DNA from: Ulota crispa
Lineage: Eukaryota; Streptophyta; Bryopsida; Orthotrichales; Orthotrichaceae
Reading direction: 5' to 3'
Assembly (NCBI GenBank): GCA_963920765.1
Contig: OY987251.1
Location: forward strand, 1,552,501 to 1,616,500
DNA length: 64,000 nt
Below are positions 18,603-52,900 of the stretch, piece by piece. Both the position numbers and the translations under genes were made by a program. Numbering within the stretch: the first letter of the stretch is position 1; every line of letters starts with the position of its first letter. The notes beneath the pieces were generated by a model. The model saw only the letters and a list, made by a program, of their open reading frames with translations, searched no databases and was not told where the DNA came from.

Positions 18603-20883
18603 ATGGCGTCGGCGTTCGCATGGGATTGGATGACCGATGCTCTGCTCTGGAAGCCTTTCCGTCCTGCCCTTTCTCAGGCTATCGAAGACTCCTTCCAGGC
18701 GCATGAGCCGTCTGTCGATCTGTGCATTGCCTCATCCTCTGCCCCTTCTCATTCCATTACCTTCCAATCGCAGCCTCCCTGCCAGGTACTCCTCTCCCTC
18801 CCTCTCTCTCTTGTGCCTGCTTGCTTTCTTTGTTCGGATTTCTTGGGGTCTGATCGGTTTCTAATTCTACATTCCCGGCCTTCTTCTTCTTTTCTTTTTT
18901 TTTTCTTTTTTTTTTTTTTTGTTAATTTTAATTTTAATTTTTTTTTTTCCGACAGTGTTTCTACAATACGAGTTGCTTATTAGTTCGACGAAACAGAGAT
19001 CCGGTTTCACCTCCTTGATTGTGTTTTGTGCGAAACGAGCAGGCGCTGTTTCAACTGGCTGTCTTTCTCTGTTGTAAAACTAATTATTCAAGTTTTTCAG
19101 AAATAGGAAATTATGCCTCCTTGTCGCCTTTTTCTATTTTTCCTCTCCTTGTTTGAGTTTATTATTAACGAGGGGGAACGACGTGTTTCTTTTGCAATGC
19201 ATGAAATTTAGTTATGTCAGTTTGTGACCAGCTGATCGTTTAGCTTGATGTGTGTGATAGAAAAATTGGAGTTCCGGACGCTCGAGAGCCGTGAGGAGGA
19301 ACGTGGACCCGCAATCAGGGACCGGTGATTGGCAATGGTACGAGGACGAAACGCAGCTATGGCATTCTTACGATCCCTCAATCAATTTTCAGATCGAGAG
19401 TGCGTGGGGGCAGTGTCATAGTAGTTCGAATGCTTATTTCCAGGCTTCTGCGCCTGCGGGAGTTTCTATCCATATTCACCATCGGAAGTTTACTGTGGAA
19501 TTCGAGGCGGACGCAGTACAAAGCAATATCTTCTCACATTACCCCCGCAAAGTTCGAAGGCGGCAAGTCTCTCCCGGAACAGGACCAGGTGCCTCAGCAT
19601 TAGCAGCAGCAGCAGCTGCGGTTGGGCCGGCTGCTTCTCCGAGTGCACCTCAAACCTCACATCCTCCTCATGTGGTATCTGTACCGGCCCCATCGGTCTC
19701 AGCTGATGCGGTTTCTCTCTCCTACAATGCGAGTGATTTACAGCCGTATGTGGAGAGCTCCGACGACAGTGACTGCCCTATTTGCGTGATGAATTTACGG
19801 GAGAAGAATGCCGTGATGCTGGCCAAGTGTCGACACGTCTTCTGCAAGGACTGCATTATGCGGTGGTTTGAGACCCGCCCCACCTGCCCAGTGTGTACCG
19901 TGGCGTACGGCGTCATAACTGGAACTCAACCAAACGGAACCATGACTGTGCGTATCATTCCCGTAAACAGTCCTGGGTTTGGGAGTGGCCTTGAAGGATT
20001 CCCTGATGTCGATATCATTCAAATACAATACAACTTTCCAAGCGGTACACAAGTAAGTCATATACTCTTTTGTTTGTTATCTTTGTCTTCCCTCTGTAAT
20101 TTCATGATACCAGCACATGAGCGGTCCATTATCCCCTTCACGTCGATAGCACTGAAACTAGGTTTTATCAATATTGTGTTCTAAGAAGTTTTCGTGAACA
20201 GGGTTCTGAGCATCCAAGTCCAGGACGACGCTATACGGGCACAAGGCGGGTTGCATACTTGCCTTCTATTAAGGAAGGTGAAGACGTGCTTAGCCTTTTG
20301 AAGACAGCTTGGGATCGGAGGTTGCTGTTCAGCGTGGGTACCTCGATCACCACAGGACAAAGGGATGTTGTCACGTAAGTGTTTTTCTCCGTCAATTTTC
20401 TTTCTTTAACTATTTGTATGGCAACAATGGGCAGAGAGGAACTTCACATTAGTATGACCAAGTATTGTGACAGGCGTGAAGATTTCGCTTCTTGAGAAAA
20501 TTACATTAGATAGGTTGGTATCAGCGAACCTTGACTTATTCTGTGATCTTGCTCCAGATGGTCAGGGGTGCATCACAAGACAAACACTTGGGGAGGACCA
20601 AGCAACTTTGGTTATGTGAGTGCTCTATAACTTTTCTTAGAATCACCGAAAGGAGAATTGCGTCTTTGTATTTTCCTTCGAGTTATACTAGGGCTTACTT
20701 TTTGCACGTAGTAGTGAGCCCTTATTTTTGTTGAAATTTGTAAAAAGATGCAGCTTGTTGGTTTTGCTCAAACACGGTTTATGTGGAGAGGATTCTGAAA
20801 GTGATTTTGTTTCGTCTTTGCAGCCAGACCCTACATATTTTGCTCGAGTGAAAGCAGAACTTGCTGAAAAGGGCGTGAGGTGA
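18603..20883 (+). CDS. DTX: Deltex-type E3 ubiquitin ligase (WWE-WWE-RING-DTC)
   Basis: This predicted ubiquitin ligase should recognise ADP-ribose. Five exons, 18603-18785, 19261-20052, 20202-20374, 20558-20615 and 20824-20883, give 421 residues; every intron is GT-AG and all phases close. WWE domain 1 spans about residues 5-75 and crosses intron 1, ending [18 protein letters not shown] domain 2 spans about 83-162, from [15 protein letters not shown] to YPRKVRR. An Ala/Pro/Ser linker follows. The RING (about 233-273) is C3HC4: [13 protein letters not shown] and CPVC. It runs directly into the Deltex C-terminal domain with [66 protein letters not shown] and GYPDPTYF. In animals WWE binds ADP-ribose chains and DTC binds ADP-ribose or NAD+; DTX1/2/4 have this same order. 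The start ATG has a good context (GGCCATGG). A possible AATAAA lies at 21275. Confidence 0.94.
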
Positions 20884-38119: not shown

Positions 38120-40456
38120 CTAGGATTGAAACAGAATCGCTTCAATGTCTTCCTGTGCCTTCACAACCTTGGGCAGTTTGTCACCCTTCATTACTTTATC
38201 TTGGGGAGAAGGTGCTTCACGTGAAAGACGCTCTGCTTCGTCGTGCAGTCCTGCAGCCCTCAGTCCCCTGGTCAACACTCTAAGAGTGACTCTTGACGCA
38301 ATAATTCCGTCCGACCTCATGGCTTCATATGATTCTAAGGCCCTGTCTACATTCTTCACTCTCAAAAAAGCCTGAATTAGAACTGTATTTGTTACTGTAT
38401 TTGGAGTGATTCCAAGAGAAGGTAATCTATCAAACAATGTAGCTGCAGCATTCACTTTCCCTGATCTAGCTAAGCTGTGGATTATTACAGTATACGTATG
38501 CATGTTAGGTTTGCAACCGGCTTTCACCATCTCCCCGTACATCTTCATGGCTTGGGTATGATTGCGCGTTCTTGACAACAAGTCAATGAGCATGGTGTAA
38601 GTATGGGCGTTTGGCTTCAGTTCATGTTCCTTCATGTGTTCAAGTACCTTCAAACACAACCAACACATTCCCTCATTAAACCACCATTCTCGCACTTATC
38701 TGCTAAACCGTGCAATAAGAGAGGCCTTTCTATGTAGCTCAGACACGATACAAAATGGAATCACTCAATGTCACCAAAAAAGAACTTGACACCATTTTAT
38801 ATAAGAAGATGCAAAAACATTGAACAGATACAATGATTGGCAGCAGAAACAAAGAATAGAGTTTCACCTCGAGAGCTGCATCAGTTTGCTTGAGCGTACA
38901 ATAACTGTGCAGCAGTGTGTTGTAGATGACTACATTGGCCGCGTTAGCCGCCTCGGCGTTGGCAAGAACCTCCAGCTGCAGGTTCACATGACCAGCCTTG
39001 CCGAGAATGTCCATCACTATGGCATAGACGTATTTGGAGGGTTCAAAAGCTGCTTGGCTTCTCAACCACTTGAAAAGTTGCCATGCCACTTCGGGATGCC
39101 CACTCAAGTGGGAGAATACGGTCGCCAAGTACTGACTCGGCAACGTTGATGGCAGTGCTCTTTTCAATGCTATTTCTGTCTCGGGTCCCCAAGGGATCAA
39201 CAATTGAGCAAGTTTCACAGGAGCTGGTGGTTTCTCAGAGACGCCATCTGCTTTCGGCGTTGGTTTCCCAGATCTGGGTGTCATGGCCGCACACTGTTGG
39301 GTGAGGTCTGCCACCTCACCTGCGCGATCTTTTAGTGCCAATGCTTTAAACAGACGCGAACGCAATGAAATGGAAGGAATAAACCCAGCTTCCATCATTT
39401 TTTTGAAGAATTTCACGGCTTTCTGCAAATCTCCACCTTTCTCATGTGCAGACACCAGAATCGTGAAAGTGACAAAATTGGGTCGCTGGTGAAGCTCAAA
39501 CAATTTGTCATACATCGCACAGGCATTGTCAAGCTTGCCAGCTTTCACAAGAGAATGAATGACAACGTTGTAAGTGAACATGTTGGGTTGACACTCACGG
39601 TGGTCTTGCATCTCTCCAAAAACTTCCAAAGCTTCCTGGTGACAATCGCCTTTGGCCAGGGCATCGATGTAGGTCGTGTACGCGTACTCGTTGGGTCGGC
39701 ATCCTGCTCGCTGCATGTGCTCCCACACTCGACGAACACCTGCTAAGTAGTTGGCTTCGCGATACCAGTGGAGGAGCGAAGAGAATGTCACAACACTCAT
39801 CCCACAGCCAGCCTCGCACATTTCAGCCAGTACTCCATTAATGGCGGCCAGATTCTTTGACCTGCCATAGTGATCTATCAGAGCTGTGTATGTGTACATA
39901 TTGTGTTGGTAACCGCTCTTCGATTTAGCCCAATTGAAAAATTTCCTCGCTAAGGGATTCGGTACCTTCTTCAGCACCCGGCACACAACCATGGGCGACA
40001 ACTCGACCTAAAGGCAAACCCACCGTGAGGACCAAACCCAAAACAGAACAACACAGCACGTCGCGTCTTCAATTCTCTAACTCCCATCTCACAAAAGGAC
40101 GGCATCCAGTGGGTCATACGAACCTGCAAAGCATCGAGACGCTGAGGCGTTTTGGGCCCCCACTTTCGACATAAGAGCTCTTCAAACTGTGCAGCGATGA
40201 CAGCATGGCTGTTGTCGTTGAGCCGATTGCCTTTTTTTTCGTTCCCAGCATTGCGGGCATCCCCGCTCACTGCATTGCCAGGACTTGCAAAAGTCCTGCA
40301 TGTTGAGACCGACCTCCTAGGGCTTAACCCGCACTTTAGGGCGACGTTCACAGCCACATCTCCAATCCTTGGGGAACCATCCCGCAAGACCTCGGCAAGC
40401 CATGAGTAATGCTGCGTTGCTTGTTCCAGACAAGTGCGTAGCGCTGCCCACCGCAT
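38120..40456 (-). CDS. P-class pentatricopeptide repeat (PPR) protein
   Basis: This is predicted to be an organelle RNA-binding protein acting in RNA processing, stability or translation. Three exons, 40124-40456, 38868-40007 and 38120-38647, give 666 residues with all introns in phase 0 and GT-AG. Residues 1-111 contain an Arg/Ser-rich start compatible with a mitochondrial or plastid presequence. About ten 35-residue PPR motifs follow in two blocks. The first block includes NMYTYTALIDHYGRSKNL, NEYAYTTYIDALAKGDC, NMFTYNVVIHSLVKAGKL and NFVTFTILVSAHEKGGDL. The second includes NVVIYNTLLHSYCTLKQT, NAHTYTMLIDLLSRTRNH and NMHTYTVIIHSLARSGKV. Between the blocks lies a roughly 100-residue spacer (KPTPKADGVSEKPPAP and after). 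No E, DYW or SMR domain is present, so it is a pure P-type protein. The RNA target cannot be read from the sequence here. Confidence 0.93.
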
Positions 40457-41477
40457 GATTCCTGTGTATAGTCTTCTGCTCAGCTCACGTCCACATGCCG
40501 ACGCAATTGGGATGGCGACAGAGTATCATTGAACAAACAGAGGCACACATTTACACCCTAAACCGCCAACAAATGACAGGTTCGACACTCCAAAATCACC
40601 AAATCCAACATCAAACTTGGTCGAAAAGTGACCACGTGAACCTACTTCCAAATTTACCCATTAACTAAAAACATGTCCATGACAAATAAAATACGACCAC
40701 GCTCGGAATCCCGAAGTCTACCACACGACCTGTAGTAGTCAATGCTGCACACACATTGGAGACTGACCGGAGACTGTGATTTCACGACAGCCATAGGACT
40801 AAGCATTGCCACGCAGATCAGTTACCAATCTGCAGCCTGAATTTAGATATAGCTAAACACCTACACACCACTAAGAGAATGTTGCCAATTATCTACATAG
40901 TTATTAACACCGACGGCGAACTCGCATGACACCTAAACAACCAAGCTGAAAATCTCTGCACATATCGTGCAAGGTAGGTTCACCAGTATACCTGAGAGAG
41001 CATACATTCGGCAATCCTAGGGCATTATCCATGTCACCTTCACCTTCCAGGGCAACCGATCAGCTTCGGTAATTCAGCTTCAGTATTAAACCACGAATCG
41101 AGGTTCGAAGCATAATAATAACACTTGTAAAGCAGAACTTACAATCGCGACAGACGATATTGTCACCCCATAAGGAGAGCTCGAAGAACTGAAAGATCAT
41201 GGTGGCTTAGCAGATCCTAAACCCAACAACTCCTCTGCTCTGTTCTACTCCAAGTAACCGAAGAGACGCAGAACCGCAAACCCCAGAGCTCAGAAATAAC
41301 ACTAGGCAAGGAAAGCCACTCGAAGATCTGCGGTCTCTGGAGCCCTTGAAGGTGGTGGCTAACGAATGATTTCTACCCCACCCGGATTGAGATGAAAACC
41401 ACAAATTCTCATCCACTTTCTCATTTTTCTTGCAGAAGTTCCTCGACTCGAGTGATTGGAATGCTCTGAGGCCTAAG
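40457..41477. promoter_or_regulatory. 5' flank of the PPR gene
   Basis: About 1 kb of medium-GC sequence lies upstream of the PPR start codon and presumably includes promoter and leader. The frame at 41207-41509 has no recognisable domain. No specific regulatory motif was identified. Confidence 0.45.
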
Positions 41478-49900: not shown

Positions 49901-52900
49901 AACATACCTTAGTAGGCACATTGCCGCACCCAAGAGAGACAAGGCAATCGATTGGAGTGTCTGGCCATATGAGCTGTGCTTCACGTATGGCAATAATGGT
50001 TGGATTATTGGCGACAATTGCACCATCCTGCCACCGATTAGACTCTGCAAACGCTCAAAACGGACATATTGAGACCTCAGTACCCATGGTTCTCATAATC
50101 ACAACTGACAAAATGGATGCGTACGTGTAAAGAGTTGCTACTTTCGAAAGCGACGTACCTTGTGAGAAGTCATCGAGATAATAGGGAGCTGCAGATGAGG
50201 CACGGATGGCTTCCCAAATTTGGTGCTTACAGCTGCCTATGAAAGCACTTCTTCGTGGTCCGACTTGAGTGGTCAATGGAGAGGCAGTGGCAGGAGTTCC
50301 AGACACTGAGGCGGCTGGCCCGTCGTTGGTCCAGGGTGCAGTCTCAGGTGTTCCTGGAGGATACTACAGCCACCAAAGCAGTCATCATTCAGACTAGCTA
50401 CTCATGGCAACACTAGAACCGAAAAAAGACACAGAAAGCATTACAACAGAAGCCAGAGTTATGCAATGACCACTTTATGAAAACGAGCTCAGAGACAGTG
50501 TGTGTGGCAAAATCACATACCTGGTAGTTGCGAAACACAAACGGTTGTGCAGGAGTAACACTGACGAGAGCAGAAACAACAAAAACTTTAGGGACTCCCT
50601 TCACTGCAGACTCAACTAAAAGGTCCCCCTCTTCATCTGCGCACATCTCTTTCAGCAAATGCTCAAACTGCTCCGCATTGTGCTGGTTATCAAGTCCCAC
50701 AACAACGTCCAATTGTTACATTCCTCAATCTCGCTTTGAACATTACAGAGCTTATAACATGTCAAACCAGAAAGCAGAAAAACCAAGTGAGGAGTCGAGT
50801 AGAAAGATGTAAAGATGGTGCAAACGTATCAACAAAAATATCACAAAGACTTGATGGAAAGCATTAATTGTCTTCCCTTTGGATGAGAAGTTGAAACAAG
50901 CTGCTCATAAAAAGTTAACCAATACCTTCGAACCATGGACCACGACTCGAAAATTTTGCGACGAACTTTTGTAGACCTGATCGATCTTTTCACGCCATGT
51001 GGCTGCTTCGTTGTCTTTTGGAATTGGCTCGGCAAACACAAGCTTTCCTACATCCAACATAACTTATGCTATCATAATTGATATGATTCATCACGCAGCT
51101 ACAAACCATGAACCCCACGGAAGAACAGATAAGTTGCATCGGATGGAAGTGGAAGGTACTGCAGGTACTCTCGCTTGAAAACGTGAACAGGAGAATGCTC
51201 AACTGACATAACAACTGAAAATCAGCCACAAGGTATCAAATGAAGCACAAAAAGACTAAAGAGTACTCTAAAACTGTATGTTCACTCACCGAGTGACTTG
51301 TATATGTCTTCACACTGATCAAGGTCCATAAGCTTGATACCCAAAGCCACAGCAAGCATGCCACCAGTAGATGTCCCACAGATAAGATCAAACATCTCAT
51401 GAATACGTCGACCTGTTCCCCGCTCAATATTTCTGAGCATCTGTACAGTTGCCATTCCCCTCATACCTCCACCGTCCATAGATAAAATGCGCAACCCTCT
51501 TTTGGAGACTAGCCGACCATGTACTGCCCGCCGCAGATATTCATTTTCACCTGAATACAAACAGAGAGAACAAACCTTGACCTTACTAAACCTATTATGC
51601 ATTCTCTGCCATACAGTGAGCACTACTGACAAGATTTGACCTGCACTGCACAAAATAGTACTAAATCTATCTCAAAATGGTTGAAAGAAAAGTAAATGGA
51701 AGATGAACAAAATAACGCTGTTGCAATCTCAACAATTGTATCACAACCGGTGAGCTCATAAGGATACGCCTTTCTACAAGTAATCGTAAATGTTGTACCT
51801 AAGATGGCCAATGCTCGAGCAGCAGCTTTACAGACTGTCGCATTGGTACCAGATGCTTGACGTAAGAGGAGGTCTCTCAAACTTTCAGATGCAACTAAGG
51901 TGCGTCGGTTCTCCCAACAAAATGCAAGATTGCCTACAGTTAATAGGGCATGCCGCTGCACCTGCTTGTCCAATACACTTCACAAGAGTTACATGATTTG
52001 TCACGGCTTGATGACCTGCGGTAGAGATTTCTTCTACGCGCTACAGTCCATACATTGAGTGCCCCTAGAAAGAGACTATTTTTCAGAGCACGTTTAACGA
52101 TATCTAGAAAAGGAGTCAATGAATGATAGGAACAATCGCATATAAATCAAAGAATGCACTCGTCCGAATTGAAAATTCACAAACCTCAATGCTTCGATGG
52201 ACACACAGAATTTTAAGTCGCTTGAGTATCTCCTTTGTGAGGACTCGGGCTGCCACAGCATCAGAAGTAAAAGCCAAGTTCATAAGGACCTGTAAAACAG
52301 AAATAAGCAGTTCCTCTTCACTGCTTGTATTGCGTAACACCATCTCAATAGCCTGCACCAAATCAGCTCGCATTAAACGCACTCCTACTGCTCCATCCAC
52401 AGCCAGAGCAGCCAATGCTATGCACGCTTGGTCCACCTTCATCATGCAAAAACACCAGAAGACACATTGTCAGAAATCTGACTGCAATTTTGCATTAAAA
52501 CTTCATTTGAACACAACACGAGCTGTTATGTGCAATCTCAACTGCGGTACTTCATTGCAGTTGGGGTAAAGCTTAACCAACCACGTGAGAATTGTCACTT
52601 AGCATCATGCTAAGAAGTTGACGCAGCGCGCCCTCATCCTTGCCAATGACGGACCGGTTGCTATCGTCCTGCGCCATCTTTGCCAAAGCAGATGCCAGCA
52701 ACGGATGTTGGCAAGACGAGAACCGAAATATGAGTGCAAAAAACACACTCAGCTTGTGTTTTGATGCAACAAAATAGGAAGCTGTTTCTGCCTGCAGCAA
52801 GATTGGAATGAATCACACGACTAATATTCCAGTCATTAAAGTCAAATTTCATGAACAATAGATGCAACTGTCGATACAGAAGATAATTTTTCCACTATAG

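Follow-up and report, generated by a model that had tools for sequence, protein, structure and literature searches.

Analysis of a 64,000-nucleotide stretch of the genome of the moss Ulota crispa (hereafter the window) revealed a complete gene for a predicted ubiquitin ligase of the Deltex family, which is known mainly from animals. The encoded protein appears to combine, within a single gene, features that are divided between the two human Deltex subfamilies. We consider it probable, although well short of certain, that this protein is a genuine plant Deltex-family E3 that docks through its WWE domains on PARylated protein and employs its Deltex C-terminal (DTC) domain to make a ubiquitin-ADP-ribose ester on PARP-marked targets. 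The gene spans positions 18603-20883 of the plus strand of the window and consists of five exons, with GT..AG at every border:

18603..18785, plus strand: exon 1, residues 1-61; contains the start codon and the greater part of WWE1 (Pfam WWE, 7.8e-08 from exon 1 alone); donor CAG/GTACTC
19261..20052, plus strand: exon 2, residues 62-325; end of WWE1, WWE2 (19330-19560), linker, RING-HC (19774-19896) and start of the DTC (from 19918)
19774..19896, plus strand: RING-HC of the C3HC4 type; ligands C233, C236, C251, H253, C256, C259, C270 and C273
20202..20374, plus strand: exon 3, middle of the DTC with the AR-less YTGTRR stretch from residue 336; PF18102, 5.0e-19 from the exon 3 frame alone
20558..20615, plus strand: exon 4, putative catalytic H388 (20571-20573) and pocket residue F400 (20607-20609), as aligned with DTX1, DTX2 and DTX3L
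20824..20883, plus strand: exon 5, end of the DTC with the putative catalytic E414 (20857-20859), followed by the stop codon
21275..21280, plus strand: AATAAA, a possible polyadenylation signal by motif only, 392 bases past the stop codon; a second one lies at 528 bases

When spliced together, the exons (phases 0,0,0,2,0) form an unbroken frame for a product of exactly 421 amino acids, which begins at a start codon in the context gccATGG. The GC content of the exons is 48-57% versus 37-38% in the four introns (for exon 2, 52.7% versus 37-38% in the introns on either side). The junction of exons 1 and 2 is backed by homology, given that the WWE profile scores far more on the joined protein (68.2 bits) than on exon 1 (33.0 bits) or on exon 2, where the match to WWE2 is weak (28.7 bits). 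Likewise, the DTC profile yields 17.2 bits with exon 2 alone, 76.2 bits with the exon 3 stretch and 174.3 bits with the joined protein, and the junctions of exons 2-5 are supported because the end-to-end DTC match needs the joined exons. The pyrimidine tract of the intron 1 acceptor (tgtgtgtgatag/AAAAAT) is poor; this acceptor is the sole in-phase AG among the 11 AGs listed between 19200 and 19340, and acceptors upstream of 19261 are ruled out in this frame, which opens at 19261, by an in-frame stop immediately 5'. The predicted five-exon Deltex gene, which the initial annotation had described as complete and with closing splice phases, is confirmed as real and intact, and is presumably expressed.

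The window belongs to the 15.8-Mb contig 10 in an assembly of 274.8 Mb and 157 contigs. Contigs 1-11 range from 6.3 to 41.4 Mb; eleven large contigs, together with the size of about 275 Mb, would point to a moss of n=11. Ten stretches, nine from the starts of contigs and one from a contig end, were checked for telomere repeats. The last 3,001 bases of contig 10 contain 9 copies of TTTAGGG, and 351 copies of CCCTAAA form a long array in the first 3,000 bases of contig 2; contigs 10 and 13 have no repeat at their starts, nor does contig 7, whose start stretch has N at either end, and the remaining contig starts contain few copies. A search of the same genome for chlorophyll a/b-binding proteins produced 56 matches from 72 candidates scored. 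Given the 15.8-Mb contig ending in TTTAGGG repeats and these matches, animal contamination, a possibility that the initial annotation had raised, is unlikely. Nothing but the surprise of finding this family in a plant speaks for contamination or for a pseudogene; the former is further contradicted by a PPR gene located about 18 kb downstream of the Deltex gene and the latter is ruled out by the frame that is intact across all five exons, and the probability that we assign to either is negligible. Judged by its surroundings, the gene is a plant nuclear gene.

Of the 4 candidates scored in a genome search with PF18102, one passed E<=0.001, namely exon 3 of the Deltex gene. The full-length protein retrieved 23 matches from 64 candidates; 4 of these are the gene itself and the other 19 are confined to query residues 193-332, around the RING. 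Thus, one Deltex copy was found among the best candidates scored. No Rfam match or tRNA gene was found in the window, and a Pfam scan of 10 neighboring frames placed two over the cut-off (PPR and patatin), with one additional weak match. The PPR gene (38123-40525, minus strand) is represented by a 422-residue frame (PF13041, 1.8e-46), with adjacent long frames in other reading frames that point to introns, frameshifts or a decaying copy. The patatin-like phospholipase (51285-51671, minus strand) is an exon-like frame (PF01734, 3.5e-10) that seems to belong to a longer gene on the minus strand.

The domain composition of the 421-residue protein agrees with the initial annotation, which had listed two WWE domains, a C3HC4 RING and a full DTC into which the RING runs. 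On the whole protein, Pfam detects WWE in two stretches (8.1e-19), the RING (zf-RING_2, 1.2e-12) and the DTC (PF18102, 1.7e-51), the last matching profile positions 1-133 of 133 over residues 281-420. The DTC directly follows the RING ligands (C233-C273) and is located at the C-terminus, the arrangement that defines the RING-DTC E3 ligases. The nearest solved chains are the DTX1 RING-DTC (4.3e-41), the DTX3L DTC (1.3e-38) and DTX2 (1.8e-38), so that, as measured by sequence comparison, the relation to the solved Deltex chains is far beyond chance. A search with the first 165 residues matches 8r5n, the tandem WWE structure of DTX1 (7e-07, residues 3-114), and the linker between WWE2 and the RING (residues about 165-225) is, as judged by eye, rich in Ala, Pro and Ser. 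The DTX1/2/4 subfamily is characterized by a proline-rich linker that binds SH3 domains and by binding to the ankyrin repeats of Notch. A Gln is present in both WWE domains (Q61 and Q148) and aligns with its counterpart in TRIP12 and DTX1; we infer that these residues occupy the position of the WWE-domain Gln that has been described to contact adenine (PMC11269756).

The domain order WWE-WWE-linker-RING-DTC is that of human DTX1, DTX2 and DTX4, as the initial annotation had claimed, but the likeness is limited to domain order because the RING and the DTC carry features of the DTX3/3L type. In an alignment with DTX1, DTX2 and DTX3L, C256 is found at the site of a His in DTX1/2 and the 5-residue insertion of DTX1/2 is missing, which makes the window RING a short RING-HC as opposed to their RING-H2 with an insertion. 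The Ala-Arg (AR) insertion is missing from the DTC, as it is from DTX3L (YTGTRR here versus YPGIQR), with which a GGP...GYPDP stretch is also shared. Compared to DTX1/2, there are 7 additional residues in an early DTC loop and the linchpin position, which follows the last RING cysteine, is Thr rather than Lys. A short RING-HC and an AR-less DTC are described as features of DTX3/DTX3L (PMC8424196, PMC11460948, PMC11467253); the RING-HC of these proteins enters our comparison by description (PMC8424196) rather than by alignment, and the human Deltexes aligned are DTX1, DTX2 and DTX3L. Whereas DTX3/DTX3L possess KH/RRM domains, the window protein has WWE. In human Deltexes, according to the account in PMC11467253, the type of the RING-DTC correlates with the N-terminal domains, WWE going with the long RING and AR, and KH with the AR-less form; the predicted architecture of the window protein breaks this pairing. 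Sequence places the protein in the Deltex family, and the features examined fit neither of the human subfamilies in full.

The DTC is 51.1% identical to that of DTX1 (70/137), with the same count for DTX2 (70/137), and 48.2% identical to that of DTX3L (66/137), which is about as far as the human subfamilies are from each other (DTX1-DTX3L, 68/137, 49.6%; DTX2-DTX3L, 71/137, 51.8%), whereas DTX1 and DTX2 share 105/139 (75.5%). A recent gain from an animal is accordingly disfavored. Searches for relatives, in which the eukaryotic sequence covered was the window's own genome, were also performed on genome contigs, where 28 pattern matches included 2 relatives, both from Endozoicomonas, a genus of animal-symbiont bacteria. 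No relative was found in viral contigs, with 1 pattern match for the single protein and 26 for a four-row alignment, and a tblastn search with the 145-residue DTC gave no match in phages and plasmids. In an unrooted tree of six DTC sequences, which is too small for dating or rooting and in which the branch of L025 is long, the plant copy joins DTX3L and Endozoicomonas L024 (95/92). The two Endozoicomonas genomes each encode a DTC domain (PF18102, 1.1e-53 and 9.6e-40; L024, 4001-4579; L025, 4001-4423; and L043), one of which is located in a 1058-residue open frame; perhaps these domains were gained from animal hosts. In the DTC, the part compared here, both bacterial proteins share the HHKT catalytic stretch with the plant copy and likewise lack the AR insertion.

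Horizontal acquisition from an animal or a protist, as opposed to inheritance from a eukaryotic ancestor, would be compatible with the mobility of the DTC suggested by its presence in Endozoicomonas and with the survey of Gazave et al. (PMC2770060), which, with two plant species sampled, found Deltex in holozoans only and called it holozoan-specific. It is at odds with the near-equal distances given above, which place the plant DTC well outside the DTX1-DTX2 pair, with the mixture of features of both human subfamilies, with the four introns, and with the entry of Deltex, by KEGG orthology, for the brown alga Ectocarpus (PMC3879662). The latter also means that Deltex beyond holozoans is not wholly unreported. 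Although these points leave room for transfer from a protist, we regard horizontal gain as quite improbable. Among the papers listed by our searches of the open literature, none names a plant Deltex in its title or abstract opening, and searches combining Deltex with mosses or with Marchantia found no paper (with Physcomitrella, 4), in accord with the statement of the initial annotation that no characterized plant Deltex was known; databases may well contain Deltex-like plant entries that were annotated automatically.

Given the AR-less catalytic half, the window protein could alternatively be an enzyme that ubiquitylates nucleic acids in the manner of DTX3L. The short RING-HC and the AR-less DTC are discussed in connection with this activity, and insertion of AR into DTX3L abolishes it (PMC11467253, PMC11460948); among human Deltexes assayed in PMC11467253, those with KH ubiquitylated nucleic acids and those with WWE did not. 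The grouping with DTX3L and one Endozoicomonas DTC in the six-sequence tree points in the same direction. However, these features are insufficient because, in the same two reports, deletion of AR from DTX2 did not create nucleic-acid activity and swaps of RING and DTC failed. Furthermore, the protein has Phe in place of Tyr719, which DTX3L needs for ssDNA (the Y719A mutant is described as defective), and its raw DTC identity is slightly closer to DTX1/2 than to DTX3L. No KH family was found at E<=10 in the Pfam scan of the protein, which is a weak test considering that the KH of DTX3L itself was found by structure. With the effects of insertion, deletion and swaps pointing different ways, nucleic-acid modification by the window protein is not predictable from these features, and we deem a primarily DTX3L-like role unlikely.

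The reading that we favor, that of an ADP-ribose-directed Deltex, draws on the residues of the DTC pocket. H388 and E414 align with His582/Glu608 of DTX2 and His707/Glu733 of DTX3L with identical spacing, and are common to DTX1 as well; changes of these residues in DTX2 or DTX3L are reported to impair or abolish ubiquitylation of NAD+/ADP-ribose and ssDNA (PMC7615817, PMC11460948). In the proposed mechanism, the tandem WWE would dock on an ADP-ribosylated (PARylated) protein, the RING-HC would recruit E2~ubiquitin, and the DTC would hold the adenosine ribose such that H388, with E414 polarizing it, activates the 3' hydroxyl. This would yield an ester of ubiquitin with ADP-ribose on targets that the plant's own PARPs have marked, and ubiquitin could possibly be transferred also onto 3' ends of nucleic acids. 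The conserved residues strongly suggest this mechanism; the chief doubt is F400, which occupies the pocket site of His594 in DTX2 and Tyr719 in DTX3L, so that ADP-ribose binding may be altered. Phe is found at the same site in Endozoicomonas L024. The weak match to WWE2 and the Thr at the linchpin position also speak against this reading.

The same Phe would fit a RING E3 of the conventional, lysine-directed kind, with WWE domains that provide PAR-dependent substrate choice and a DTC that has lost its nucleotide chemistry, for which RNF146, a WWE-RING ligase dependent on PAR, offers a precedent (PMC11269756). Such a loss is hard to reconcile with the retention of the catalytic His and Glu and with the 51 columns that are invariant among the window protein, DTX1, DTX2 and DTX3L (in one RING column, the DTX3L chain contributes an apparent expression-tag residue), all of which would be difficult to account for if the pocket were not used; we view this as a minority possibility. 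The ADP-ribose-directed ubiquitin system proposed in the initial annotation is upheld with respect to the family assignment by sequence, the plant nuclear location, the retained His/Glu pair and the presence of PARP, PARG, macro and WWE domains in the genome; its chemistry cannot simply be assumed, given that the catalytic half is DTX3/3L-like and the pocket residue is Phe.

The hybrid mark ubiquitin-ADP-ribose was discovered recently. Its biochemistry, in the sources considered here, comes from work on human Deltexes (PMC7615817, PMC11460948, PMC11467253), and a plant enzyme with an intact catalytic pair makes the age of this chemistry relative to animals testable, in a plant in which a single gene would be the target of a knock-out. 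The mixture of WWE with an AR-less RING-DTC provides a natural test of which feature sets ADP-ribose versus nucleic acids as the substrate, a question that the artificial DTX2/DTX3L swaps left open (PMC11467253, PMC11460948). As a speculation that we put forward with limited credence, plants of this lineage might keep an ancestral Deltex in which WWE and a DTX3/3L-type RING-DTC are joined, and which reads PAR and ubiquitylates both ADP-ribose and 3' ends of nucleic acids. If so, this one enzyme would have been split into the WWE and KH subfamilies of humans, and ubiquitin-ADP-ribose signaling would be older than animals and Notch.

The genome encodes further domains of ADP-ribose metabolism. 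The PARP domain yielded 12 exon matches from 13 candidates, on contigs 1, 5, 6, 7, 8 and 9, and the loci on contigs 1 and 6 contain the motif YNEYIVY, which we take to be that of PARPs of the catalytic-Glu type. There are also 4 exon matches to PARG in two places, 4 matches to the macro domain from 7 candidates, and 6 matches to WWE, of which 2 are the Deltex gene, 1 is in an SRO-like WWE-PARP frame and 3 are clustered on contig 1. Makers and removers of the ADP-ribose substrate thus probably exist in this plant, and the PARPs would be the partners of the Deltex, a link that we infer. The plant SRO/RCD1 proteins are likewise WWE proteins (PMC2848248) but combine this domain with PARP where the window protein has RING-DTC. 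The SRO-like frame (L018, C7:11777079-11777942) retains, in the apparent PARP-triad positions, His (WHGTS) and Tyr (GVYLA); Arabidopsis RCD1 has been proposed to be inactive (PMC2848248). The three WWE matches on contig 1 (L019, L020 and L021, C1:3470376-3491029) are located in short frames within 21 kb, with WWE the only Pfam domain in the L019 frame, and apparently form a small cluster of WWE genes that belong to neither the SRO nor the Deltex type. Finally, three related PARP-domain matches on contigs 8, 5 and 9 (L004, L005 and L006, respectively) share the motif HGT...GVYTAS, with VVHY/VVYY in L005 and L006 where the catalytic Glu is expected; by eye, these resemble mono-ADP-ribosyltransferases that differ from both SRO and PARP1/2.
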